NCBI GenBank assembly: GCA_002726515.1 | Contig: PBTE01000077.1 | Location: 1-64,000, forward strand | DNA from: Planctomycetaceae bacterium | GTDB lineage: Bacteria > Planctomycetota > Planctomycetia > Pirellulales > Pirellulaceae | DNA: 64,000 nucleotides | Reading direction: 5' to 3' | In this document: positions 11,425-37,933 of the stretch, one piece after another | How positions within the stretch are numbered: position 1 is the stretch's first letter | Layout: the number at the start of each line of letters is the position of its first letter | Made by a program: the position numbers and the translations under genes | Notes under the pieces: model-generated | What the model saw: only the letters and a program-made list of their open reading frames with translations | Told to the model about the DNA's origin: nothing | Database searches by the model: none

Positions 11425-14400
11425 TTACGAGAACTTTGCGGCTTTCTGTACAGAAATGATCGAAAGATGTTCGCTCAAAAATTCGGGTAGATTTCCCTGT
11501 TGCAAATCCTCGAGTGCCTGAAGACGCAGCTTCACTACATCCTTGTCGCGTCCCATCGTATCGAGTTCCCGAGATGCTCCAAGTTCCGCAATGCGTCCCA
11601 AAGTGCAATGCCCCTTTGGCCCTGTAAGGTACAAGTCCACTCCGGATAACTTCTTTGTGAAAATACTTGCCCAAGGCTCCTTCTGACCTTGCACCATCAA
11701 GTGCACCACTTGTTGGTTATTCCAAAGAAATTGTCCTTCGGGAACTGTTTCCCGCAACATCTCACATAATTCTTCCAACAGGTCCAGGTCCCATTGAATT
11801 CGCTTGCCGGGAGGAAATCCTTTCCGTGACCAATGCCAACGCTGTCCTAGTTTTTTCCAAGGCATCATGTCATTCGGATTGCTGGCTGCCCGCTCGGTCA
11901 TTTTTCTAAATCCCGCCTGGGCTCGATCCAGGAAGTGCCAGAACTCCGGCGTATCTATTTCCTTGAACGAATGGGCCTTGATCTGTACTTCCTGCCAGGG
12001 CCCGCGCAGATTTTTGCACTGCACTCGGGGTTCGTTCCCATAGACCGGGATCTCTTCCAGGTCATTGAACGACTTGAGCTTCAGATCTTCCTGTAAATCG
12101 CCACGTCGAAACGTGTTCTTGGCAACACGAAACTTCAATTTCACAAACCACGTCTCCCCCGTGATTGCGTGAATGAACCAGCCATCACTTTTTTTTGAAG
12201 CCGCTATTTCGACCACGCTGCGGGCCTTCCAATCGACCGGGCTGAATTTTCCACTATCCTGGACCCGCTCAACAATTTCACTCAGGATCCTGCCGTCCCA
12301 GCGACATGAAAGACCGTCACGACCAACTCGATCCTGCGTGTGCCAACGCTGGCCGTCCAATTCCCAGGGCATTTTTTGATCCCGCCCTACTTCCGTAATA
12401 TCGAGATCGCCATTTTTCTCACGGGTTTCGGCAACCAGGTCATATGATTCCCGTTTCTCATAAGGTCCCGCAGCCAACACGTCGGCTAAAACGACCCCCG
12501 TGTAGCTAACAATTGATTTGCTGTTAGCCTTCGCCTTCGTGGTTTTCTGATCTCGTCCATTGGTCTTGTTCGTGGTGGATTTTCGTCGTAAAGCAACCCG
12601 ACCATGACGTTTGGTAACCCGAACCAGATCTTCAGGAGTGCCGACCGCGACCACCCGGCCTCCTTGTTCACCCGCCCCGGGACCCATATCAATCACCCAA
12701 TCCGCCGATTTCACAACATCCAGATTATGTTCGATAACGACGACAGTGTTTCCTAAGTCGACCAGCCGGTGCAACACATCAAGTAGTTTCCGCAAATCAT
12801 CAAAATGCAATCCGGTTGTCGGTTCGTCCAGTAGATACAAAGTCCGTCCCGTATCGGGACGAGACAACTCGGCCGCCAGTTTCACGCGCTGGGCTTCTCC
12901 ACCGGAAAGAGTGGGAGCCGGTTGTCCCAACGTCAGGTAATCAAGCCCCACATCACACAGCGTCTGCAAAGTGCGACGAATTTTTGGAATGTTGTCAAAC
13001 AGTTTTAATGCTTCACCACAAGGCAACTTCAGTACATCATCGATGGACTGTCCGTGGTATCCCACGGCCAGTGTTTCCGTGTTGTATCGCCGTCCCCGAC
13101 AGGTATCACATTCAACCCAGACATCCGGAAGAAAATGCATTTCGATGCAAATCTGGCCATTCCCTTCGCACCCTTCACAGCGTCCGCCCGGCACATTAAA
13201 GCTGAAGCGGCGCGGTGTGTAACCACGTAATTTGGCTTCCGGAAGTTGTGAAAACAACTGACGAATCAAATCGAACACACCGGTATACGTGGCAGGATTC
13301 GAATGTGGCGAATTTCCCAGGGACCGCTGATCCACTCGAATCACCTTGTTGATATGCTCGATTCCCAGAATGGTTTCGTGCACACCCGGAGTGGTGTCGG
13401 CGCGGTGAAGCGTCCGCGCAAGGGCATTGTATAACACCGCGTCGACCAGTGAGCTTTTGCCGCTTCCACTGACACCCGTGAATGCTGTCAATGTGCCGAG
13501 AGGTATGCGAACGTCAATGTTTTTGAGATTGTTCTGGCGTGCGCCTCGAATTTCGATCCAATCTGTCCGGGGGTTGGAGTCAAGTTCACTCGGCGGAGAA
13601 CCCCGCTTTGAACTCTTGGCCCCGGGGTTCATCCGGCGGTCGCTCGGGATGGGAATCGCCTTTTTCCCTGACAAATAAGGGCCGGTGACGGAGGCGCGTC
13701 GTTTGGTAACCTGTTCCCTGGTGCCCTTGGCCACCACTTTACCGCCGTGGATTCCCGCACCCGGTCCGAAATCGCAAATTTCGTCCGCATTCCGCAAGAC
13801 CTCGCGGTCATGTTCCACGACAATCAGAGTGTTCCCCAAATCACGCAGTTTATGCAGCGCTGCGAGCAAGCGATGGTTGTCCCGGGCATGCAATCCAATG
13901 GTCGGTTCATCGAGTACATAAAGCACACCACAAAGACCGCTACCCAGCTGGCTTGCCAATCGAATTCGCTGAAATTCCCCGCCTGACAGCGTCGCGGCGG
14001 ATCGACCCAACGAAAGGTACTCCAGTCCGACATCGCAGAGAAACTGAATACGACTCTTGATCTCGCGTACCACCTCACCAGCAATCTTGCGCTCGCGCGA
14101 GTTGAACTTCCACCCGCAGATCGTTCGCTGGACGTCGTGCAACGGCATTCGACACAAATCGGCCACCGTTCGCCCCCGGAATTTCATGGCGGCCGCATCG
14201 TCGCGCAGACGGCTTCCTTCGCATGTCGAACATTCCACCTCGTCCACTAAATGATCGAGCTTTGATCGAAAACCGGGCGAGAGTCGGGACGCCTCCTCCA
14301 AAGCAGGATAGATCCCCTTGAATTGAAAGCGAAACAGTGGCCTGCGACGGGGCTGTTTCTGTGACGGTCGTGAACCCGGCTTGCTCCGTGTCCTCTGTTT

Positions 14401-17400
14401 CAGCGGTTTTTCCGGAAAGACCTCGTACCACTCCTCCTCGGTGCCGTGCATCACCAGTCGACGCTGCCGCATGGTAAGTTGGTCAAAGGGTACATCCAGA
14501 GGGATTCCTGTTTTCGTGGAAAACACCTGCAGCATCCACTGGGAAACTGGCATATCCAAGCGAGGCCAGAGATTGAGTGCACCATCCTGCAAACTCAAAT
14601 GCGGATCGTTGAGTAACGCCGCAGGATTGGCGCCAATCTGTGTTCCCAAGCCCTCACATTCCGGGCACCAGCCTAATTGGCTATTGAACGAAAAATTGTG
14701 AGGCGTCAAATGCTCAAAGCTGCGTCCACAACGATCACATGCCAGATGCTGGCTGTGAGTGACAACGGCCCAGCTAGACTCTTCTGTGTCTTTTTTCTGG
14801 TAGGCCACTCGCAGCAGACCGCGCCCCAGAGCCAATGAACCTTCAATACTTTCTGCAACCCGCGATCTCGATTGATCGTTGATCACGACCCGGTCGACGA
14901 CAATCTCGACTTCATGCTTTCGCCGCCGATCAATGGCCGGAGGATCGTCAAGCGAATGCGTGATACCGTCCACACGAACACGCACGTACCCAGCGGCGCG
15001 GCATTCCTCCCAAAATGTTTCGTACCGTTGCCCTACTTCAATCTCAACAGGGGCCATCAAATAGAGCTTGGTTCCCACCGGTTCTGACAGGACCTTCTCG
15101 ATTATTTCATCGGTTGTCTGAGTCCCGATTGGAAGATCGCAGTCCGGACAAAAGTATTTCCCCAAACGAGCCATGAGGATGCGCAGATAATCATAAATTT
15201 CGGTGACCGTCCCCACCGTGGAACGAGGGGTGTGCCCCAAATGCCGCTGTTCGATTGCAATAGCCGGTGACAATCCCTCGATGCGGTCCAACTGCGGCTT
15301 TTGCATTTGCGAAACGAATTGCCGGGCGTACGAACTCAAACTTTCCACATAGCGGCGCTGTCCCTCGGCATAAATCGTGTCCATTGCCAAAGATGTTTTT
15401 CCCGACCCGCTGGGACCGCAGAATACCGTCATCTTGTCTCGGGGAATCGTTACGTCCACATGTTTCAAATTGTGCTGCCGGGCACCCTGCACTGTAATTT
15501 GTTTAGTGACAGACAACTTTGTTTTTTCGCGGCTTGTGGATTTTTTTCCGTTCCCGGGCAACTGGGGTGATTGCAACTCTCCCCGTACGTGCCTGCTGAG
15601 CGCCAGCGAAGTGTACGTTGGAAGCTGCCGGCTTGGTCCAGCCGGGGCGGATTTTTCCGACTCCCCATTCGGCTGAACAAGCTTTATCAGATCTTCAGGA
15701 GTCCCTGTCGCCACAACCTGACCCCCTGCAGATCCACCTTCAGGGCCCAGGTCAATGACCCAGTCAGCTGTTTTAACGACATCCAAATTGTGTTCCACAA
15801 TCACTACGGTGTTGCCCGCTTCCACAAATCCTTGCAGCACCTTTAACAACAGCTTGATATCCGCAAAGTGCAGACCAGTCGTCGGTTCATCCAGGAGATA
15901 CATTGTGCGGCCCGTACTGCGCTTCACTAGTTCGCGAGCCAGCTTAATCCGTTGCGCTTCTCCGCCGGACAAAGTGGGTGAAGGCTGACCCAGTTTGAGA
16001 TAGTCGAGGCCGACGTCGTGAAGCGTCTGCAATTTTTTCTGAATTTTGGGAACATTCTCAAACAGCTCGAGTGCCTGTTGAACATCCAGTTCAAGCACAT
16101 CGGCAATGGTCTTTCCTTTAAAACGGACCTGCAGAGTTTCACGGCTGAATCGATGCCCTTCACAGACCGGACATTTGACCCATACATCGGCCAGAAAATC
16201 CATCTCCAGTCGAGTGGCCCCATTTCCTTCACAGGCTTCGCAACGGCCGCCTTTTACGTTGAAGCTGAATCGCCCTGGTTTGTATCCTCGACGTTTGGAG
16301 TCAGGGAGCTGGGAATAGAGGCTGCGGATCTCATCAAAAACTTTGATGTAAGTCCCTGGATTGGAGCGCGGAGTACGACCAATAGGGGACTGGTCGATGG
16401 CAATCAATTTGTCGAGATGTTCCAGTCCTTCAATGCGGTCATGACGACCAGGCTCACCCTGCCCTCCGTTCAGGTCACGGCGCAACGCTTCACCGACGAT
16501 TCGATTTACCAGTGAACTTTTCCCCGAACCGGACACTCCGGTAAAACAGACGAGTCTACCTAAGGGAATTTCAACATCGATGTTTTTCAGATTGTTCTCG
16601 GCCGCCCCCAGAATGCGCAGACATTCATTGTCTTCCGATCTCCTTGAAGAGGGCACTTCAATCGCTTGTTTTCCCGAAAGGTACTGAGCGGTGATGCTTT
16701 TACGAGAAGCCAGAATTTTGTCCACAGATCCACTCGCCACAACATGGCCACCGCGAACCCCCGGGCCAGGTCCGAAATCGATCAGATGATCTGCGCTGCG
16801 CATCGTCTCCTCATCGTGCTCGACGACAACCACCGTATTGCCCATGTCGCGAAGTTGCGTCAGGGTCTGCAATAACCGTTCGTTGTCACGTGGATGAAGG
16901 CCAATGGAGGGTTCGTCCAGAATGTACAAGACGCCGACCAGCCCGCAACCAATCTGGCCTGCCAGGCGAATACGCTGGGTCTCCCCTCCCGAAAGCGTGG
17001 GCGCGGTGCGCTCGAGGGTGAGGTAGTCGAGTCCGACATTCGTCAAGAAACCAAGCCGTCCGCGGATCTCCTTGAGCGCTTCGCTAGCAATCAGGGAACG
17101 CGTCGCATCGAGCTCCAGATCGCTGAAGAACAGGGCTGCATCGGAAACCGCTAAAGCACAGACTTCCGGTAGCGACCGGCTAGGATTGTCAGCAAAGTGA
17201 GGATGATTGCTGTGAAGACGAACAGACCGAGCTTGGGAAACAAGCCGCTCGCCATGGCAATCGGGACAAACAATCGTACTCATGTACTTTTCCAATTTCC
17301 GCAAATGGATCTTGCCTTCCGTATTGCGATACTTGGACAACAAAGTCGGTATGATGCCTTCCCAGGTACCTCCATACTTCTGAGGCCGCTCACCACCGCG

Positions 17401-18609
17401 CCAAGTGAAAGTGATGTGAGTATCGTCGGAACCCCACAACCAGATGTCCTGCAAAGAATCCGGTAATTCGCACCAGGGAGTTTCGAGCATCTTTCCCGGA
17501 GCGATCCCTTGCAACCGCTCAATTGAATCCGCGACTCCTTGATAGATGTGTCGCTTCCACCGACCCAGTTCAGACCAGCGCCCCAAAATCTCAAAACATC
17601 CCTGCTGAAAAGAACGCCCGGAATCCGGGATCATCAGATCAGGATCAAAGGTAAACATCTGTCCCAGGCCATCGCATTCGTAACACATTCCCTGAGGACT
17701 ATTGAAGCTGAACAGTTGGGGAGAGGGTGGTTCAAAACTCAGACCGCAACTTGCACACGCATAATTCGCCGAAAGGGTAAAGTCCCCGGGCCGGCTTCGA
17801 CGGCGTCTCGAACGAGTTCGTCGCCTGTGCGCAGTCGCCTCCGTGGGGGTTCCATCCAGTGGATCCTGAGGAGCAGCTGGAGATAGGCCTTGAACGACAT
17901 GGACAATGAGATTCCCCTGTCCCAACTTCAGAGCCAGTTCAACCGCTTCGGCCACTCGGGGACGAATTCCCTTCTTGATCGAAAAACGGTCTACGACAAC
18001 TTCAATGTCGTGGCGCATCTGTCGATCCAGATTTAAATCTTCCGACAAAGCGACGATTTCTCCATCGACACGGGCCCGCACATATCCCTGTTTCAACAAA
18101 TCATCAAACAGATCTCGATACTCGCCTTTCTGACCGCGAATGATGGGAGCCAAAATCAATAACTTGGCTTCGGCTTTCGATTGAAGAATGCGTTCGACAA
18201 TCTCTTCGCGCGTCTGTGCAGCGATCTCTTGGTTGCACTGGGGGCAGTAACCGGTACCGACCCGGGCGTAGAGGACTCGCAGGTAGTCGTAGATTTCAGT
18301 GATTGTCCCCACGGTGGAACGTGGATTGTTGCCTGCCGTTTTTTGAGAAATCGAAATCGAAGGACTGAGCCCCCCAATAAAATCCACATCGGGCTTGGGC
18401 ATCTGACCCAGGAATTGGCGGGCAAAACTCGACAGGCTTTCAACATATCGACGCTGCCCTTCAGCATACAATGTGTCAAATGCCAACGAACTCTTGCCCG
18501 ATCCGCTGACCCCAGTCAGGCAAATCAGCTGGTTGCGAGGCAGGACAACATTCACATTTTGAAGATTGTGCTCGCGAGCACCCCGTATGACGATATCTGC
18601 AGCAGGCAT
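11425..18609 (-). CDS. uvrA: Tandem-fused excinuclease ABC subunit A with duplicated C-terminal extension
   Basis: The 2394-residue product contains two complete UvrA copies in one chain (about 1-1000 and 1035-2010); ordinary UvrA is about 940 residues. UvrA recognises DNA damage and loads UvrB in nucleotide excision repair. Walker A motifs GxSGSGK(S/T)S are intact at about 33-41, 690, 1070 and 1715, each followed by an LSGGExQR signature. Each copy has two zinc modules of paired CxxC motifs (about 286, 790, 1290, 1810). Copy 1 keeps RGQKGEYRDLFDDLLKQG in the UvrB-interaction region, while copy 2 is diverged there. Residues 2080-2394 form an extension of two related modules starting MPWELDGQRWH and MPWKKLGQRWH. 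The downstream CBM9-like gene follows within 8 bp. The reading frame is continuous, so the length is not an assembly of separate genes. Confidence 0.95.
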   Translation of the reverse strand: MPAADIVIRGAREHNLQNVNVVLPRNQLICLTGVSGSGKSSLAFDTLYAEGQRRYVESLSSFARQFLGQMPKPDVDFIGGLSPSISISQKTAGNNPRSTVGTITEIYDYLRVLYARVGTGYCPQCNQEIAAQTREEIVERILQSKAEAKLLILAPIIRGQKGEYRDLFDDLLKQGYVRARVDGEIVALSEDLNLDRQMRHDIEVVVDRFSIKKGIRPRVAEAVELALKLGQGNLIVHVVQGLSPAAPQDPLDGTPTEATAHRRRTRSRRRRSRPGDFTLSANYACASCGLSFEPPSPQLFSFNSPQGMCYECDGLGQMFTFDPDLMIPDSGRSFQQGCFEILGRWSELGRWKRHIYQGVADSIERLQGIAPGKMLETPWCELPDSLQDIWLWGSDDTHITFTWRGGERPQKYGGTWEGIIPTLLSKYRNTEGKIHLRKLEKYMSTIVCPDCHGERLVSQARSVRLHSNHPHFADNPSRSLPEVCALAVSDAALFFSDLELDATRSLIASEALKEIRGRLGFLTNVGLDYLTLERTAPTLSGGETQRIRLAGQIGCGLVGVLYILDEPSIGLHPRDNERLLQTLTQLRDMGNTVVVVEHDEETMRSADHLIDFGPGPGVRGGHVVASGSVDKILASRKSITAQYLSGKQAIEVPSSRRSEDNECLRILGAAENNLKNIDVEIPLGRLVCFTGVSGSGKSSLVNRIVGEALRRDLNGGQGEPGRHDRIEGLEHLDKLIAIDQSPIGRTPRSNPGTYIKVFDEIRSLYSQLPDSKRRGYKPGRFSFNVKGGRCEACEGNGATRLEMDFLADVWVKCPVCEGHRFSRETLQVRFKGKTIADVLELDVQQALELFENVPKIQKKLQTLHDVGLDYLKLGQPSPTLSGGEAQRIKLARELVKRSTGRTMYLLDEPTTGLHFADIKLLLKVLQGFVEAGNTVVIVEHNLDVVKTADWVIDLGPEGGSAGGQVVATGTPEDLIKLVQPNGESEKSAPAGPSRQLPTYTSLALSRHVRGELQSPQLPGNGKKSTSREKTKLSVTKQITVQGARQHNLKHVDVTIPRDKMTVFCGPSGSGKTSLAMDTIYAEGQRRYVESLSSYARQFVSQMQKPQLDRIEGLSPAIAIEQRHLGHTPRSTVGTVTEIYDYLRILMARLGKYFCPDCDLPIGTQTTDEIIEKVLSEPVGTKLYLMAPVEIEVGQRYETFWEECRAAGYVRVRVDGITHSLDDPPAIDRRRKHEVEIVVDRVVINDQSRSRVAESIEGSLALGRGLLRVAYQKKDTEESSWAVVTHSQHLACDRCGRSFEHLTPHNFSFNSQLGWCPECEGLGTQIGANPAALLNDPHLSLQDGALNLWPRLDMPVSQWMLQVFSTKTGIPLDVPFDQLTMRQRRLVMHGTEEEWYEVFPEKPLKQRTRSKPGSRPSQKQPRRRPLFRFQFKGIYPALEEASRLSPGFRSKLDHLVDEVECSTCEGSRLRDDAAAMKFRGRTVADLCRMPLHDVQRTICGWKFNSRERKIAGEVVREIKSRIQFLCDVGLEYLSLGRSAATLSGGEFQRIRLASQLGSGLCGVLYVLDEPTIGLHARDNHRLLAALHKLRDLGNTLIVVEHDREVLRNADEICDFGPGAGIHGGKVVAKGTREQVTKRRASVTGPYLSGKKAIPIPSDRRMNPGAKSSKRGSPPSELDSNPRTDWIEIRGARQNNLKNIDVRIPLGTLTAFTGVSGSGKSSLVDAVLYNALARTLHRADTTPGVHETILGIEHINKVIRVDQRSLGNSPHSNPATYTGVFDLIRQLFSQLPEAKLRGYTPRRFSFNVPGGRCEGCEGNGQICIEMHFLPDVWVECDTCRGRRYNTETLAVGYHGQSIDDVLKLPCGEALKLFDNIPKIRRTLQTLCDVGLDYLTLGQPAPTLSGGEAQRVKLAAELSRPDTGRTLYLLDEPTTGLHFDDLRKLLDVLHRLVDLGNTVVVIEHNLDVVKSADWVIDMGPGAGEQGGRVVAVGTPEDLVRVTKRHGRVALRRKSTTNKTNGRDQKTTKAKANSKSIVSYTGVVLADVLAAGPYEKRESYDLVAETREKNGDLDITEVGRDQKMPWELDGQRWHTQDRVGRDGLSCRWDGRILSEIVERVQDSGKFSPVDWKARSVVEIAASKKSDGWFIHAITGETWFVKLKFRVAKNTFRRGDLQEDLKLKSFNDLEEIPVYGNEPRVQCKNLRGPWQEVQIKAHSFKEIDTPEFWHFLDRAQAGFRKMTERAASNPNDMMPWKKLGQRWHWSRKGFPPGKRIQWDLDLLEELCEMLRETVPEGQFLWNNQQVVHLMVQGQKEPWASIFTKKLSGVDLYLTGPKGHCTLGRIAELGASRELDTMGRDKDVVKLRLQALEDLQQGNLPEFLSEHLSIISVQKAAKFS

Positions 18610-20399: not shown

Positions 20400-23369
20400 T
20401 TACTCAAAAAACAACAATCCAAACCCTGCCGGGATCACTTCCACATCGGCTGGTGAATTCCAAGCCTGGAAACCGACTCCGGGTACCACTCTTTGGATCC
20501 CCATGGCCCAAACCGCGCGAGACGAGGGAACCGCTCGAACCAACTCTTGAAGAGGGATGGCTGCTTCGATGGTCCACTGCGTTCGATCCCGGTCGGCTGC
20601 CACATACCAACTCGGGTTCCAGGCAACATCGCCAAAACATTCCTCCCTTGTCCACCCGCGATAGTCGACTGTCAAACGATAGAAGGACGTATAGTCACGA
20701 TCAACGTCCAGCAAGAGTTGCAGGCGGTCGTTAGCATCGAGTTCAGCATCGCGCGAGCGGGGCCCGGATCCAGTTTCCGAGTAAGAGGCAGCAGCTTCCC
20801 AGGGGCAGATTGCGGCAAAATAGAGAAATTCCCGGTCCCTGGCCAACATGAACTTTGCAGTACTGCGTAAACTTTCGCTCCGTACGCCGTTGAGTTCCAA
20901 ACGTTGAGCATTCTTCCAGATCGCTTCCTGAAGTTGACCATCCAAGCGAGGCCGTTCGTTCGACAGCGTGCACACCGCGTGGAGTTTGGGCGGCAATCCA
21001 CGACCATGTCCCAACCATTGTTCGGTTCGGGCACACAGGTTCCAGGCGCTACCCAAACGAACCGACGCCATCTGGTTGTAGATCTTTTCCGCTTCGCGGT
21101 CCAAACCTTGCTCCCGATAGGCGGTTATCAATGGAAATCGCCAGGCGGGCTGAGCCAACAACAACGCGTAGCGCTGCTCAGCCTGCTTGGCAAGTGCGAG
21201 GGCTCGACTCCAGTGACTTTCCGCGTCTTGCCGCAGGTCTTTGGCATGGCTTCCTTGCATTCGTTGCATCGCTTCACTACTGCAGTAATACTGCAGTAGC
21301 CACAGCATCGATTTTTCGGCCAGCACATGTTGAGGATGTCGATCGATCAGGACCTGATAAACTTCGGCCGCCATCTCCTGACGGCCGAGCCTCGAGTAGC
21401 GTTGTGCCAGATGAAACATGATCTCTCCGGCACTCGTTGGGTCCAAACCTCGCGTGAGTTCTGTAATTTGTCCGAACCAGCCACCTCCCTGCTGCTCCGC
21501 CCGTTCTGACTGTAGCAGTAGTTGTTGGATGTTACGCCGTTTACGCCCCATCAGCCGCAAAGCGGCAAAGTCCTTAATCGTTGGCGACCGGCGCGGACGA
21601 CGGGCCTCACCTCCGGGGGAGAGAGAAATGCCACTGAAAAAATCGCGGCGCGCAAGCTCCTGATTCATCACGGAAGACAGCAGCCGAAAACCGATGACAT
21701 GAGGCCCCGGAGCATAACGCTGATCAACCAGTCCTCGTGCGATTGCTGCCTGTTGGCCGTAAGATTTCCCCAACCTCGTCGCAAGGTGAGACGTATCGAC
21801 ATGCAGGGAGCCTGTCTGCTCGTTCGGCAGCTGACTAAAAACCTTCTTCACCTGCCAAGGACTCAATCGGGCCACCGTCAACTGATCCGAATAGCTCGTG
21901 GCATCCGCTGATTTCTTCACAGCAGCCAGCACAATCTGGTTCATTAAATGCGAGCTGGGAAAATGACCCGCGGGACTGGCAGCTGAAGTAACAACGACGT
22001 CAGGTCGCCATTGTCGAATGCTGCGCACAACGTGTTCTTCAAGCCTGTCAGCGCCGCGACCATCATTTGCTCGGTCCCACGTGGCCAGAATCGCGTCGGC
22101 GGGCAAACGAAGCGCTGGTGAAGCGAGAGGGAAATTTCCCGAAGAGGAAACAGAACTCCCGCCCACACGAAGGACTGCTTCGCGCAGGCGATCGGTCGAC
22201 CGGAGGTTGGTGTTCCGCCCCGCAGCAGTTTGGCGACGACCGAAAGTTTCGACGACACCCAGGTATCCCTCGTCTGCTGACACACGAGCGAACAACTCCA
22301 GAGGGACATGCTCCACTTCGGAATAGTAACCCACGATCGCGGCGCGCGTTCCGCCACTCTGCTGCCTTGTCCAATTCTGGCCCCCGTCAGCTGTTACCAG
22401 AATGGTTCCGAAATCGCCAACGGCACATCCGTGACGTGAATCGACAAAACATAAATCTCGAATTGGCAGGTTTTGGCCTGTCGCAAGCCGGTTCCAACTT
22501 CGGCCCGCATCCGTGGTTTGAAACACGACGGTCCCGGGAGAACCGGCGATCCAGCAATGCTCTGAATGAACTGCCAGGGCCTGGAAGTTGAAGTTCTCGG
22601 AAATCTCCGCGGGAAGTGAATCGACAAGAACCCATGTCAGACCACCGTCCCGGGTGACCATGACACGTCCCTCTTCGCCCACCAGCCAGCCCATGACTTT
22701 GTTAGAAAACTTGAGGGCGTGAAACCGGGTAGCTCCCAATTCCGGAGTTCGAGTCTTTTGAAAACCGTTTCTCCGCACAATGGAAATTTGGCCACCAGTT
22801 CCCACCGCAATGCCATATCGGGAATCGATGAAGTCGCCGGCGAGCCAGGCTTGATCTGTCTGGCCAGGAATCGTCGACCAGCTTCGTCCTCCATCTTCCG
22901 TATAGAAAACCCCTGCGGCATACATTGCCGACCCGTCAGCCAATGCCCAGCCCTTGTGCCTGTCGAGCATTCTGATGCGAATGAAACGGGGGAGCAACTC
23001 GCTACGGATCCGGGTCCAAGTCCGGCCTCCATCACTAGTTCTCAGAACGACACCTTCTGTCTCGTGCATGTAGGGTCGGTGTGTACCACCCACCGCCCAG
23101 CCGTGAGCATCGTCGAAAAATTCAACGTCCTCTAAACGAGAAGTCGTCGGAGTCGGTTGCCGCTGCCAATGGCGCCCTCCGTCTCGCGTATGCAAGATGA
23201 CGCCCCGATCACCAACCACCCAACCGAGTTCGGAATTGACAAAATGAACACTGTTCAGTTGAGCATCACCGGCATCCTCCATTCCCTTGGAAGACTGTGC
23301 CTGAGCGAGAGAAACGTTGCTGGCAACACAAGCCAGCCCCACACAAAATATTTGATGCCACCTATTCAT
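20400..23369 (-). CDS. Large secreted multidomain protein: Ycf48/BNR-like repeats, PIG-L-like domain, TPR-like region, CBM9-like domain
   Basis: The ~989-residue product begins with a signal peptide (MNRWHQIFCVGLACVASNVS). Residues about 30-330 carry repeated GWVVGDRGVILHTRDGGRHW-type blades, as in Ycf48/Hcf136 and sialidase BNR repeats (at least six GW-VG/GG--W units). About 345-560 resembles a PIG-L/LmbE deacetylase, with RPDVVVTSAASPAGHFPSSH, but the usual HPDDE metal motif appears as SADEGY, so it is probably non-hydrolytic. About 620-800 is helical and TPR-like (LAQRYSRLGRQEMAAEVYQ). About 810-985 is a CBM9-like module (RLDGQLQEAIW, then NDRLQLLLDVDRDY). It is probably exported and surface- or periplasm-located; function unknown. 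The start ATG overlaps the stop of an upstream small lipoprotein frame (ATGA), suggesting coupling. Confidence 0.82.
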   Translation of the reverse strand: MNRWHQIFCVGLACVASNVSLAQAQSSKGMEDAGDAQLNSVHFVNSELGWVVGDRGVILHTRDGGRHWQRQPTPTTSRLEDVEFFDDAHGWAVGGTHRPYMHETEGVVLRTSDGGRTWTRIRSELLPRFIRIRMLDRHKGWALADGSAMYAAGVFYTEDGGRSWSTIPGQTDQAWLAGDFIDSRYGIAVGTGGQISIVRRNGFQKTRTPELGATRFHALKFSNKVMGWLVGEEGRVMVTRDGGLTWVLVDSLPAEISENFNFQALAVHSEHCWIAGSPGTVVFQTTDAGRSWNRLATGQNLPIRDLCFVDSRHGCAVGDFGTILVTADGGQNWTRQQSGGTRAAIVGYYSEVEHVPLELFARVSADEGYLGVVETFGRRQTAAGRNTNLRSTDRLREAVLRVGGSSVSSSGNFPLASPALRLPADAILATWDRANDGRGADRLEEHVVRSIRQWRPDVVVTSAASPAGHFPSSHLMNQIVLAAVKKSADATSYSDQLTVARLSPWQVKKVFSQLPNEQTGSLHVDTSHLATRLGKSYGQQAAIARGLVDQRYAPGPHVIGFRLLSSVMNQELARRDFFSGISLSPGGEARRPRRSPTIKDFAALRLMGRKRRNIQQLLLQSERAEQQGGGWFGQITELTRGLDPTSAGEIMFHLAQRYSRLGRQEMAAEVYQVLIDRHPQHVLAEKSMLWLLQYYCSSEAMQRMQGSHAKDLRQDAESHWSRALALAKQAEQRYALLLAQPAWRFPLITAYREQGLDREAEKIYNQMASVRLGSAWNLCARTEQWLGHGRGLPPKLHAVCTLSNERPRLDGQLQEAIWKNAQRLELNGVRSESLRSTAKFMLARDREFLYFAAICPWEAAASYSETGSGPRSRDAELDANDRLQLLLDVDRDYTSFYRLTVDYRGWTREECFGDVAWNPSWYVAADRDRTQWTIEAAIPLQELVRAVPSSRAVWAMGIQRVVPGVGFQAWNSPADVEVIPAGFGLLFFE

Positions 23370-23710
23370 GCGTCCTGTGCACACCCAGCAAACCGCGAGT
23401 TTAGCGTCCGTCCCGACTGGCTGGGAAGTCTAACGAAAGCGGCCATCAGGAACCAGAGCAGCGTCCAGTGCACATGGAGGCAGTGTCCGCACAAAACCGG
23501 TGCCTGCGTGAGAGCCCGGCTATGACCAACAGAGTACCGCCTCGTACCGTGATCAAAGCATTCTCCGGCGACTGCCGATCGAGGTTCTGTAACCCCCTTC
23601 CCGTTTGAATCAAAACCATCTTTGGTACGTGTCACTGCGGAATGAGTGCAACCCAACAACAACAAGGCCCCAACTACAACCAAGTGTAGCGGGACCTTGT
23701 AAGGTAACAA
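23366..23710 (-). CDS. Putative small lipoprotein
   Basis: This 114-residue frame starts at a TTG with GAAGGG just upstream. It carries a hydrophobic stretch (residues about 8-20) ending in LLLGC, a fair lipobox with Cys21 as the lipidation site. Its stop codon overlaps the ATG of the large Ycf48-like gene (ATGA), an arrangement typical of translational coupling. Against it: the start is non-ATG, and the C-terminal half (CGHCLHVHWTLLWFLMAAF) has no recognisable pattern, so it may be a leader or a chance frame. I do not recognise a family. Confidence 0.45.
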   Translation of the reverse strand: MLPYKVPLHLVVVGALLLLGCTHSAVTRTKDGFDSNGKGVTEPRSAVAGECFDHGTRRYSVGHSRALTQAPVLCGHCLHVHWTLLWFLMAAFVRLPSQSGRTLNSRFAGCAQDA

Positions 23711-23745: not shown

Positions 23746-24633
23746 TTAACGCACGGCCTCATTCAGCATCCGAATGTTGGGAACACTGTGACGATTGAGT
23801 AATCCTTCCTCATCGGTTTCGATGATGGTGGCCACTGGACCCACATCTCGAATGGTCCCCTCAAAACCGGCAATGTTAACACGATCGCCAGCGTGCATTC
23901 GCTGTCTCACGTAGTAACCCGCCAGGATACCCGACATAACATCGCGACCACCCAGACCAAATGCCAAACCGAATCCCAGTGCGACGGCAGCAAACCCTAT
24001 CAGAATGGCATAGCTGAGCAACTCGAATTTGATCTCCAGTTGCTCAAAGGCTGCGATGAATACCATCAGTCCCAAGATATAATAGCAAGCCGCGGCCAAC
24101 TGCTGAGCGTAAGAGATACCTAACCGGTCGGTGCTGGTAGCAATCACCCCTCGCAGGAAAGTCGCCAACAACAGGCCCACCACCACGATCACGGCCGCAA
24201 CAAATAACTTGGGAATGTAAGCCACCAGACTCTGCATCGTATCGCTGACAGCCTCCAGTCCCAGAATCTCGCAACCGGCCATTAAGAACACACACATCAA
24301 AAGCCAGAAAACGATCAAACCGATAATTTGCGGCACGGTACGCTCAATTCCAACCTGCTTCATGGAATCGATCCAGCCACCTCGCTCTGCGGCAATTTGA
24401 AGCCCCAGCTTTTCGCAAACAGCTGTGATCGCGCGGCCCGCCAAACGTGCCACAAGGTAGCCCACCACCAAGACAACCAACATGGCAATCACGTTGGGAG
24501 CCCACTGTAAAATCGGACCGGTAACGAGCTCGTAACTTTGCTTCAGCGCGTCGCCTGTTTGGTCCACTTGATTCAACAACGGATTCACCGCACTGGTAGT
24601 AGCCTCCGAAACTACTTGTGATTCATTACTCAT
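23746..24633 (-). CDS. Small-conductance mechanosensitive channel (MscS/CmpX-like)
   Basis: The 295-residue product is a multi-span inner-membrane protein. Predicted membrane helices lie at about 44-66 (VIAMLVVLVVGYLVARLAG), 100-122, 136-160, 185-200 and 208-230. It closes with a short MscS-type cytosolic beta domain (GDRVNIAGFEGTIRDVGPVAT, then NRHSVPN). The glycine/alanine-rich pore-like helix GFAAVALGFGLAFGLGGRD matches MscS TM3. The conserved TM-helix repeat architecture resembles CmpX-type channels more than E. coli MscS. It presumably opens on membrane tension. It is the last gene of an overlapping cassette: its start overlaps the preceding small membrane protein gene by 8 bp, behind an ECF sigma factor, which suggests stress-linked expression. 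Confidence 0.88.
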   Translation of the reverse strand: MSNESQVVSEATTSAVNPLLNQVDQTGDALKQSYELVTGPILQWAPNVIAMLVVLVVGYLVARLAGRAITAVCEKLGLQIAAERGGWIDSMKQVGIERTVPQIIGLIVFWLLMCVFLMAGCEILGLEAVSDTMQSLVAYIPKLFVAAVIVVVGLLLATFLRGVIATSTDRLGISYAQQLAAACYYILGLMVFIAAFEQLEIKFELLSYAILIGFAAVALGFGLAFGLGGRDVMSGILAGYYVRQRMHAGDRVNIAGFEGTIRDVGPVATIIETDEEGLLNRHSVPNIRMLNEAVR

Positions 24634-24856
24634 GACATTTTCCTTTCTGCTTGGTCAAATCGTATTGACCAGTCAAAGTGAAGGTGAACACTGCCACCAA
24701 CGCGACAAACAGGTGTGTTACCGCGAGGGGCATGACCCTCATTCCAAATTCAATAAAGTGGGAAATAAAAAGCACGCGGTTCAATTGCAGATGGACCTGC
24801 AAATCGATGTCCTCCGGCGGAGGAGGAACTTCAACATTCTTCAATCGTTCTAACAT
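24626..24856 (-). CDS. Small single-span membrane protein between sigma factor and MscS
   Basis: This 76-residue protein has an acidic, proline-containing N-terminus (VEVPPPPEDIDLQVH) and one or two hydrophobic segments (about 28-40 and 44-63). The second one ends FTFTLTGQYDL, with a basic C-tail. It overlaps the sigma factor gene by 7 bp and the MscS gene by 8 bp. That tight packing is the main evidence it is real, together with a composition unlike random frames. I do not recognise a family. Position and topology fit a membrane-anchored sigma-factor partner or a channel accessory subunit, but no ZAS zinc motif is present. Confidence 0.75.
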   Translation of the reverse strand: MLERLKNVEVPPPPEDIDLQVHLQLNRVLFISHFIEFGMRVMPLAVTHLFVALVAVFTFTLTGQYDLTKQKGKCHE

Positions 24857-25470
24857 GACGCTTCTGGATATCGTTGTTTCAGTTTGTCCCTGGCCCGACT
24901 CACCCTCATCTTGCAGGCGCTAATCGAAAGCCCAAACGTTTCTGCGAGTTCCTCGTAACTTTGTTCTTCTGCATACTTGAGAATCAACAGTGCGCGATCG
25001 GTTTCGTCCAACGTGTCAAGCATCTGCATCAAATCAACCGCCAATTCTGACGACCTTTGCGCGGAGGTTGTTGTGTCAGGTGACGATTTGTCAGACAGGG
25101 CCGATTCGCGACGAATTCGGCGGCCACGACTACGGCGCAAAGTCAAACAGGTATTGACCGCAATGCCATGAACCCAAGTCGAGTATTTGCTCCGTCCTTG
25201 AAAACGATCTCGGTGTAAGAACATCCGGAGGAGGACTTCCTGGGCTGCATCACTAGCATCTTCTGCGTTGCCCATCAGTCGGAAACAGACCCGCCACACT
25301 CGCTCGCGAAAACGGTCCACAAGCGCTACAAACGCGGGGCCGTCAGATCGCTCGCTCAACGTTTGTGAGGCGAGTTGCTCATCCGTAAGTTCGCCGGTTT
25401 CTTCCAACGTCATCACCATGGTTGCCAACCCTGGGGAAGGCTCAATTCTGTTTCGCTCTCCTTGCGTCAC
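24850..25470 (-). CDS. ECF-family RNA polymerase sigma factor
   Basis: The ~206-residue product has both ECF sigma regions. Region 2 is at about 45-115 (FVALVDRFRERVWRVCFRL, then AEDASDAAQEVLLRMF). Region 4 is at about 145-200, with the helix-turn-helix SYEELAETFGLSISACKMRVSRARDKL. It would direct RNA polymerase to a small stress regulon. The longest frame starts with GTG at 25470; an ATG at 25419 (17 residues shorter) is an equally reasonable start, since neither has a clear ribosome binding site. Its stop overlaps the start of the small membrane protein gene, which in turn overlaps mscS, so the three are translationally linked. No typical zinc-binding anti-sigma gene is adjacent. Confidence 0.93.
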   Translation of the reverse strand: MTQGERNRIEPSPGLATMVMTLEETGELTDEQLASQTLSERSDGPAFVALVDRFRERVWRVCFRLMGNAEDASDAAQEVLLRMFLHRDRFQGRSKYSTWVHGIAVNTCLTLRRSRGRRIRRESALSDKSSPDTTTSAQRSSELAVDLMQMLDTLDETDRALLILKYAEEQSYEELAETFGLSISACKMRVSRARDKLKQRYPEASC

Positions 25471-25627
25471 ATAACGTTAGTTGCCGTCCGTGCAGCGCCG
25501 AGTCACTTCAAGTAAGAAAAATTCCGATGATTCCCAGTAAACCCAAACTATTAATCGAGTTGAGTTAATAACAGGCTGTTACATACAACCCAATCGAATG
25601 ATCGGCCCAGGATATTTCAAGACAGAC

Positions 25628-35800: not shown

Positions 35801-36461
35801 GCGAAAATACCCATGTCTCCTCGTCGCAAAATCGGATTGCGTAGCGGTCGGCTTCTTTCATCAGGATTCGATACCGAATCGGCTTGCCGGCACTGGGACT
35901 GACTTCGCCGACCGGAGAACAGTAAGTGGGTCTGTTCACATTGCACCGCCGGCACGCAGCGCGGGGAGGGAAACGAATTCACGCGAGGAGACTCAGCCGA
36001 ATTCAACGCCCCCGAATCATCACCCTGCGTATCCCTGACGCGACACGAAAGAAGTCATTTCGACACCAGAGCTGCCAGTGACGATTGGCAGAATCGATCA
36101 GAATCGATCAGAATCGATCATGGTGTAGAAAATTTTTCAACAGGCACCGCCAGCATTGATGCGACTGACCCGGATCCATGGAAAAACCGTAACCCATTTA
36201 ATAATAGATAGTTACACCTCCTTCTCCGGATACCGATCGCAACGCTTATGCGACTAATAGGGCACTTAGGCATGGTTGTTGCAGTTAAACGGTAGTGCAA
36301 TTGAGGCTGCCAGTTACAGGCATTTCTGCTTTGGTTCGCAACTCGCCGCGCGTCATCGGCATCACGAGAAGAATGGATGGCCGAACGACGGGAGATTCGA
36401 GGCCCAATTTTCTAAGCGTTTAGGAACATTAACGAACTCTCGCCGCATCGAACACGTAACT
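35801..36461. other. Gene-free region upstream of ECF sigma factor
   Basis: These 661 bp show no credible gene on either strand. The notable element is a 10-bp triplicate repeat at 36091-36120. The frame of the downstream sigma factor stays open upstream of its chosen start for 62 codons, without sigma-like sequence. Confidence 0.45.
36091..36120. repeat. Three perfect tandem copies of a 10-bp unit
   Basis: The unit GAATCGATCA is repeated three times without a mismatch. One full helical turn per unit puts each ATCGAT core on the same face of the DNA, as in cooperative regulator binding. It lies about 340 bp upstream of the sigma factor start. A replication-slippage repeat is the simple alternative. 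Confidence 0.75.
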
Positions 36462-37115
36462 ATGAATATAACCGCGAAATCAAAAAAAATTGCCTCGGAT
36501 CGGCAAACTCGTCTCCCCCGGATGAACGACGAAATGCTACTGCGTTCCTATCGCCGCACGGGTGACGGGAAAGCGTTTGCACAGTTGGTTCACCGGTATG
36601 AAAATGAAATCTACAACTACCTCCGTCGTTACACGGGCCATGCCGAAATGGCGGAGGACGCATTTCAGACGACATTTTTACAAGTCCACCTTAAGTGCAA
36701 CCAATTCGACGACGGTCGCAAGTTGCGACCCTGGCTATATGCGATCGCCACCAATCAAGCCATCGATTTGCAACGCAGAAACCGTCGTCATCAGGCCACG
36801 AGCCTGAATCGGGCCACCGGAAACGAGACACTTGATCAAGCCGGTCAACTGATTGACCTCCTGGAGACAGACGAAGCCGGACCATTGACCAAATTGCACG
36901 TGGCAGAACGCCGGAGATGGGTGCAGAACGAGTTGCAGAAACTCCCGGAACACCTGTACACCGTAGTACGCCTGATCTATTACCAAGGGCTCAAATACAG
37001 GGAAGCAGCAGACGTGTTAGCAATCCCCGTGGGGACGGTGAAGAGCCGTCTGCACTCGGCGATTCTCAAACTGAGTGAAGCATGGCAATCTGCGATCCTC
37101 AAAACAGAAGAGTAA
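36462..37115 (+). CDS. ECF-family RNA polymerase sigma factor
   Basis: The ~217-residue product has sigma region 2 (FAQLVHRYENEIYNYLRR, then AEMAEDAFQTTFLQVHL) and region 4, with the helix-turn-helix KYREAADVLAIPVGTVKSRLHSAI. The start used is the ATG of MNITAKSKKIASD at 36462; an ATG at 36522 (MNDEMLLRSYRR) would also give a normal-length protein. Neither has a clear ribosome binding site. The region 2-region 4 linker is long (about residues 110-150). The next gene begins 8 bp after the stop and encodes a membrane-spanning putative anti-sigma factor, so the pair is probably an operon in which the second protein holds this one inactive. Confidence 0.93.
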   Translation: MNITAKSKKIASDRQTRLPRMNDEMLLRSYRRTGDGKAFAQLVHRYENEIYNYLRRYTGHAEMAEDAFQTTFLQVHLKCNQFDDGRKLRPWLYAIATNQAIDLQRRNRRHQATSLNRATGNETLDQAGQLIDLLETDEAGPLTKLHVAERRRWVQNELQKLPEHLYTVVRLIYYQGLKYREAADVLAIPVGTVKSRLHSAILKLSEAWQSAILKTEE

Positions 37116-37123
37116 TCTATTCA

Positions 37124-37933
37124 ATGCGAGAACTGTTGCTCGGATATTTGCTTGGTGCACTGAACAAAACCGAACAGGCAAGTGTCGAAGAACGGGTCAA
37201 ACGGGATCCCCAGTTCCGTGAAGAACTGAAGTGTCTGGCTGTCAGTCTTCGACCCTCGCAGGTGGAGCGAGGGATGTTCCCTGCCCCCGAAGGCCTGGCT
37301 CAGCAAACCATCGAGTTGGTTACCAAGTACATTGATCAAGAAAAAACCAACTCGGTTCGCAGGCGGATCAGTACCCGTCGGCAAGGCCGTGCTCGCACAC
37401 ACTGCTGGTCCCTGCCCGACGTGATGATGGCGGGTGGAGTTGCGGTAGCCGCGGCGCTTCTGTTTTTCCCCACAATCGCCAATAGCCGTTTTCAATCAGG
37501 GATTACCGGAGTTCAGAATCACAAGCGGATGCTGTACCTGCCAGTGAGGAATGATGACAATGCGAGTCACGGACATCTGTCACAACCGGTCGTCCAAAAA
37601 CAGCAGGCATTTGTGGGCGCTGACGCACCCATCCACCAGCAAGATCCAGCGTGGTTTCTGCACCCTCGGTCGACTTCCGCCGAATCGTTAAAATTGTCAA
37701 CAGCAGAACAATCACAGTCCGGCAGCGGACCGGTGTTAAGGCTCGTGCAAGAAACTCTGCCTGATCGATACGGCTACACGCTGGGCTACAATCTGATTGA
37801 CCGCTATCAGCCAACCAGGCAGCAGCCCCGTTCTCATTCTGACATCATATCTGCTGCGGCAAGTAGCTCGGCCCGGGGTCGCCACAGTACGAACCGTGGC
37901 GATTGGCAACAGAACGTGCTCCTGGATGATTGA
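37124..37933 (+). CDS. Putative membrane-anchored anti-sigma factor
   Basis: The 269-residue product has a helical N-terminal domain (ELLLGYLLGALNKTEQASVEERV) similar in layout to anti-sigma domains. It lacks a clear HxxxCxxC zinc motif. A basic stretch leads to one membrane helix (about 99-118), and then ~150 residues lie on the outside, rich in Gln, Ser, His and Pro. The N-terminus would sit in the cytoplasm. It starts 8 bp downstream of the ECF sigma factor. Function is assigned from context and topology rather than a family match. The start is the ATG at 37124, since earlier in-frame codons overlap the sigma gene. Confidence 0.72.
   Translation: MRELLLGYLLGALNKTEQASVEERVKRDPQFREELKCLAVSLRPSQVERGMFPAPEGLAQQTIELVTKYIDQEKTNSVRRRISTRRQGRARTHCWSLPDVMMAGGVAVAAALLFFPTIANSRFQSGITGVQNHKRMLYLPVRNDDNASHGHLSQPVVQKQQAFVGADAPIHQQDPAWFLHPRSTSAESLKLSTAEQSQSGSGPVLRLVQETLPDRYGYTLGYNLIDRYQPTRQQPRSHSDIISAAASSSARGRHSTNRGDWQQNVLLDD

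Follow-up and report, generated by a model that had tools for sequence, protein, structure and literature searches.

What could hold an ECF sigma factor gene, a very small gene and the gene of an MscS-family channel together in a planctomycete genome, and how might such a sigma factor be controlled? The locus that raises this question lies in a stretch of 64,000 nucleotides from a Planctomycetaceae bacterium (contig PBTE01000077.1 of assembly GCA_002726515.1, positions 1 to 64,000), hereafter called the window. A preliminary description, made from the sequence alone, had pointed to three overlapping genes. We verified all three frames at the coordinates listed below, all of them on the minus strand, together with the overlaps of 7 bp between the sigma and the small gene (24850-24856) and of 8 bp between the small and the channel gene (24626-24633). 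A predicted promoter in front of the sigma gene completes the list.

24850..25470, minus strand: ECF sigma factor, SigX-like; 206 aa, GTG start as annotated; Pfam regions 2 and 4.
24626..24856, minus strand: small membrane-associated protein; 76 aa; conserved family upstream of the channel.
23746..24633, minus strand: CmpX-like MscS-family channel; 295 aa; PF05552 and PF00924.
25477..25508, minus strand: predicted self-recognised promoter of the sigma gene; AAGTGAC-N15-CGG-CAACTAA.

Elsewhere, the window encodes the planctomycete-specific domains PSCyt1, PSCyt2 and PSD1, which bear out the planctomycete origin assumed in the preliminary description, and a frame of 2394 aa (11425-18609, minus strand) that holds two UvrA-like proteins in tandem plus an extra C-terminal part.

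The three genes were found to stay together far beyond the window. When the small protein was used as query, relatives were detected in 16 of 60 related genomes, all of them within the same sigma-small-channel arrangement. A search with the channel then covered 197 genomes of the order and gave an orthologue in 60 of them, mostly at 45-66% identity, with a clear gap separating these orthologues from everything else; adding genome G024 from the small-protein search makes 61 trio genomes. The small gene lies directly upstream of the channel gene in every one of these (61/61, profile scores of 33-123 bits), and the sigma gene lies upstream on the same strand in 58, the remaining three loci stopping at a contig end. 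The trio is spread over 13 families of the order and, across the phylum, strong channel orthologues were found only in this order. Plasmid records contained no relative of the small protein and only distant channels without the trio, while no SigX relative was found on viral contigs. Among the loci examined, the trio had no other universal neighbour. Directly downstream of it, the window encodes a YCF48-like BNR propeller and TPR protein (20400-23384, minus strand), a relative of which occupies the same place in three other large loci (four including the window). The conservation in planctomycetes that the preliminary description had proposed to look for is thus present, in 61 genomes of one order. 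Its argument that overlapping genes would keep stoichiometry fared differently: among 57 loci, sigma and small genes overlap in only 6 and small and channel genes in only 4, with median gaps of 53 bp and 105 bp, respectively. Overlap as a conserved stoichiometry device was therefore rejected; it is the linkage, and not the overlap, that is the conserved trait.

A known arrangement with similar components is SigX-CfrX-CmpX of Pseudomonas, which belongs to ECF102 and has been placed in a "mechanosensing complex" class (PMC8999054, PMC7641640). Our comparisons with Pseudomonas rest on DNA of Pseudomonas loci, among them that of P. protegens FD6 (L069/G060), or on library models. The sigma factor of the window carries Pfam regions Sigma70_r2 (5.5e-16) and r4_2 (1e-13), and its best NCBIfam model is SigX (NF007222), with a score of 109.6 bits that stays under the 194-bit cut-off, so that formally it falls outside the SigX equivalog NF007222/ECF102. 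A profile of the planctomycete sigma factors nevertheless had SigX as its top match in the genome of P. protegens (130 bits vs 76 for the next), and the SigX model ranked the window's sigma factor first in its own genome (109 bits vs 86), showing that the two are reciprocal best matches among the ECF factors of both genomes. In a tree with the other ECF factors of both genomes, few in number, as outgroups, planctomycete sigma factors and gammaproteobacterial SigX fell into one clade with a support of 93/97. The window contains another ECF sigma gene, followed by an overlapping 283-aa frame without a Pfam match (36276-37933, plus strand), which is possibly a regulator of that second sigma factor.

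The kinship extends to the channel. Pfam detected MS_channel_1st_1 (PF05552; 3e-17, 62.6 bits) and the beta-domain MS_channel_2nd (PF00924; 4e-5, 24.0 bits against a cut-off of 20.2), corresponding to about five candidate transmembrane segments followed by the beta-domain. The protein ends three residues past the beta-domain match, and the third MscS domain, the C-terminal alpha/beta vestibule, was absent according to Pfam. The channel thereby resembles MscS-family channels in its transmembrane-helix repeats (PF05552), its beta-domain (PF00924) and a Gly/Ala-rich pore helix, but it differs from MscS in having no C-terminal vestibule, and solved MscS structures were matched weakly (best E 4e-6). 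In contrast, a comparison of profiles using hhalign aligned it with Pseudomonas CmpX at E 3e-37 and 35% identity over 254 aa, and CmpX has the same Pfam architecture, likewise ending at the beta-domain. From a shallow alignment, AF2 modelled the channel poorly (mean pLDDT 66). A distant CmpX-like channel was also seen in another planctomycete family (L197/L218 of genome G766, at L218:8030-8921), where a CfrX-like small ORF (ARREVGVRDLLTFCLARIWTVL) lies just upstream and no sigma gene lies beside.

The 76-aa frame between sigma factor and channel had no match in Pfam or NCBIfam. It is considered a real gene because related proteins precede the channel in about 60 genomes. The preliminary description had made its reading depend on conserved residues in the small frame of relatives, and the family alignment contains several: L5, V10, P11, P14, N26, L29 and G63. 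The family shares an N-terminal segment, (M..D)LLEQLAExxVPPxPxxFDxxVHxRLN, after which comes a hydrophobic stretch ending in T.(T/S)G; the window's protein reads VPPPPxxIDxxVHxxLN N-terminally, is hydrophobic at residues ~27-66 and closes with a short tail. Its hydrophobic segment scored 2.21 on the KD scale and +9.6 on the octanol scale, values that speak for a membrane segment, and the transmembrane character of many relatives is moderate, with a KD value of at least 1.6 in 36 of 61 (~60%). AF2 run on the single sequence predicted one helix at residues 16-74 (mean pLDDT 79). The HxxxCxxC zinc motif (ZAS) was absent from the family alignment and no known anti-sigma domain was detected with Pfam or NCBIfam, in agreement with the preliminary statement that the place of a classical anti-sigma factor is taken by a small membrane protein.

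CnrY, which works with CnrH, is a short membrane-anchored anti-sigma factor. By analogy, the window's protein may be compared to it, as both would place a short segment in the cytoplasm ahead of a single membrane helix and both are encoded beside an ECF sigma gene; the small protein differs from CnrY in that it gave no sequence match in Pfam or NCBIfam and in that its partner is a channel instead of a periplasmic sensor. We regard the small protein as a candidate anti-sigma factor. When it was aligned with the CfrX family by hhalign (61 vs 14 diverse sequences), the same region was matched at borderline E values of 0.015-0.043, and among shuffles of the columns 0/60, 5/150 and 9/150 scored at least as high as the real alignment. 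We thus call the small protein a positional counterpart of CfrX, homology to CfrX not being established. In both systems the protein is small, 76-85 aa long, and contains a hydrophobic stretch. No function has been demonstrated for CfrX in Pseudomonas, and it was described as "soluble" (PMC8999054); relevant to this description, the products of the small genes that precede cmpX in Gammaproteobacteria other than Pseudomonas contain a clearly hydrophobic segment.

In front of the planctomycete sigma genes, we found a two-block element, TTGTGAC-N14/15-CGGCAACTNA, whose second block reads CGG-CAACTNA. The core TGAC-N14-CGGC was present in 26 of 53 loci, compared to at most 7 in shuffles, and 42 of the 53 trio loci had the element at a PWM score of at least 12 before their sigma gene, a count that is descriptive given that the PWM was built from 38 of these 42. 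In the window, the predicted promoter GTGAC-N15-CGGCAACTAA has its -35 box GTGAC at 25506-25502 and its -10-like box CAACTAA at 25483-25477, and it is the best site of the whole 64 kb (24.0 bits vs 10.7 for the next). The annotated GTG start at 25470 is doubtful because this promoter ends only 6 nt before it; the true start is probably located downstream, at an in-frame ATG at 25419 or at 25413. In one family of the order (f8; L178 and L182-L188), the trio is present, but most of its sigma genes are preceded by an altered element or by none, which suggests an altered specificity of the sigma factor there.

As of 2020, the SigX promoter consensus was said to lack a precise definition, and the cfrX transcription unit of P. 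aeruginosa is SigX-dependent (PMC7641640). Gammaproteobacterial cfrX genes turned out to be preceded, 48-113 bp upstream, by (T)GTGAC-N16-18-CGTC (L109-L112 and L235-L244); among the loci listed, this pattern was absent only at L113 and at the sigma-less planctomycete locus L197. We propose TGTGAC-N16-18-CGTC as a candidate SigX promoter consensus. In P. protegens, its spacing predicts a leader of ~13 nt for cfrX, the same length as the P. aeruginosa cfrX leader obtained by start-site mapping, as far as quoted in PMC7641640. Measured from the -35 box, CAACTNA in planctomycetes and CGTCTAA in Gammaproteobacteria occupy about the same position, and one planctomycete locus (L158) even reads TGTGAC-N17-CGTCTAC. 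Since the two motifs align in this way, the two groups of sigma factors appear to have a common -35 specificity and spacing, and TGTGAC-N17-C..CT.A may be the SigX-type promoter that both share.

Altogether, the planctomycete trio and SigX-CfrX-CmpX share a SigX-like sigma factor, a CmpX-type channel that ends after the beta-domain, membrane or lipid targets, and a promoter in which about 17 bp separate a TGTGAC -35 box from the C..CT.A -10 box that follows. The -10 boxes differ, being mostly CGG-CAACTNA in planctomycetes and CGTC on the SigX side. The gene order differs as well, with sigma, small and channel genes forming one unit in planctomycetes, whereas Pseudomonas has cfrX-cmpX followed downstream by sigX and oprF. 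Beside its sigma factor scoring under the SigX equivalog cut-off, the planctomycete trio also departs from the SigX system in having no oprF neighbour: next to the window's trio there is none, the YCF48-like protein being found downstream instead. The trio is a real and conserved variant of the SigX-CfrX-CmpX kind. Neither this Pseudomonas counterpart nor the promoter and its regulon had been noticed in the preliminary description.

Candidate targets of the sigma factor were found with the pattern TGTGACN{14,15}CGGCAACNNA, which gave 46 matches in 42 trio genomes compared to 3 for the same pattern read backwards. About half of the 46 are the sigma promoters themselves. In four genomes (G053, G630, G639 and G663), a second copy lies between the small gene and the channel gene (for example at G053:C223:17985-18014). 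The pattern also precedes the gene of a PlsC-type acyltransferase (PF01553) in three genomes and, in a slightly relaxed form, in the window's genome. In eight genomes, including the window's own, it stands before a gene for a multi-transmembrane protein of ~430 aa:

G000:C178:35530-36816 (L279/L293), minus strand: multi-transmembrane protein of the window's genome; no Pfam match; site at 37028-37057.

This gene was present in all 75 genomes of the order tested, with and without the trio among them, which allowed a comparison using a PWM for which sigma promoters alone had served as training set. Of the 38 trio genomes, 18 had a strong site (16-29 bits, at most 500 bp upstream) before the multi-transmembrane gene, and of the 36 non-trio genomes none had one (Fisher p 4.6e-7, an optimistic value given that these genomes are not phylogenetically independent). 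The best score in the 36 non-trio genomes was 6.6, and within the window's own family the strong site was found in 2 of 4 trio genomes vs 0 of 28 non-trio genomes. The absence of a strong site from 36/36 non-trio genomes is what is expected of sigma-specific promoters. About half of the trio genomes (20/38) have no strong site at this gene. Sigma gene and target promoter thus co-occur in the order.

From these data, the trio very probably encodes a self-activating SigX-like sigma factor that controls membrane genes. The sigma factor would recognise TTGTGAC-N17/18-CAACTNA promoters and activate its own operon, and hence the genes of the small protein and of the channel; in some genomes, it would also fire a second promoter located just before the channel gene. 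The multi-transmembrane protein of ~430 aa and the PlsC-type acyltransferase would be further targets. The membrane-tension or membrane-stress role put forward in the preliminary description fits both the SigX/CmpX kinship and these predicted targets (acyltransferase, channel and multi-transmembrane protein). SigX of P. aeruginosa reacts to cold and to stiffening of the membrane, and cfrX-cmpX is under its control (PMC7641640); SigX is also required when osmolarity is low, and it affects both lipid synthesis and fluidity (PMC3875570).

How the sigma factor is held back and released is a matter of a more cautious proposal. We lean slightly towards a membrane-homeostasis module with the small protein as the holder of the sigma factor and the channel as the part that sets it free, because of the strict linkage, of the lack of any other regulator nearby and of the shape of the small protein. 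In the resting state, the sigma factor would be bound by the short N-terminal segment that the membrane-anchored small protein exposes to the cytoplasm. The CmpX-like channel would then feel bilayer tension or lipid packing and govern the release of the sigma factor, while both the channel and the lipid enzyme would in turn relieve the disturbance, which would make the circuit a feedback loop. We consider it likely that the small protein sequesters the sigma factor, that the channel is the sensor and that the stimulus is of this nature. On the Pseudomonas side, sigX has been called an orphan without an adjacent anti-sigma factor (PMC3875570, PMC3832394), and overexpression of cmpX did not clearly activate SigX (PMC10965496).

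Another hypothesis is that the channel is only an effector. Control of the sigma factor would then act on its transcription or come from an unlinked regulator, its role would simply be to have the channel and lipid enzymes made when the envelope is under stress, and the small protein would assist the channel as a minor partner. Consistent with this hypothesis, sigX mRNA itself rises under membrane stress in P. aeruginosa (PMC7641640), SigX is active in ordinary growth and was described without an adjacent anti-sigma factor (PMC3832394), and the channel has its own promoter copy in some genomes. One would however not expect an ordinary effector, rarely so linked to its sigma gene, to be accompanied by the small gene and never to be found apart from the sigma gene in the order, nor a distinct and conserved small gene to stand always between sigma factor and channel in planctomycetes. 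We therefore regard this hypothesis as rather unlikely.

Less probable still is that the small protein is an accessory subunit needed for assembly or gating of the channel, whose cytoplasmic face would itself bind and release the sigma factor. The small gene does adjoin the channel gene in both lineages, including at L197 and L111 (the latter on a short contig), where no sigma gene was seen nearby, and a channel without the usual C-terminal vestibule has its cytoplasmic face left open. L197 and L111, however, rest on short ORFs with weak similarity, and channel assembly alone does not explain the conserved hydrophilic segment VPPxPxxFDxxVHxRLN. Finally, that unrelated genes simply share one transcript with no joint function is hardly credible: bacterial genes often overlap, and the overlap seen here is not conserved, but the three-gene linkage is strict across 13 families, with channels 45-66% identical, and a parallel arrangement with shared promoter elements exists in Gammaproteobacteria.

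Returning to the small protein as holder and the channel as releaser of the sigma factor, we suggest, as a tentative generalization, that a family of tiny membrane-anchored anti-sigma factors, seen in this one order of planctomycetes and with CfrX as a distant or convergent counterpart, may couple an ECF sigma factor directly to an MscS channel, which in two phyla would then do the sensing for a transcriptional regulon of membrane repair. "Mechanosensing" control of ECF sigma factors has had one studied case, SigX of P. aeruginosa (PMC8999054). The planctomycete trio would be a second version of it, compact and contained in a single operon, in another phylum and with a defined promoter and candidate targets. 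This promoter motif and these targets make the idea of a channel-gated sigma factor directly testable, and the multi-transmembrane protein found in all 75 genomes gains a first lead to its function.
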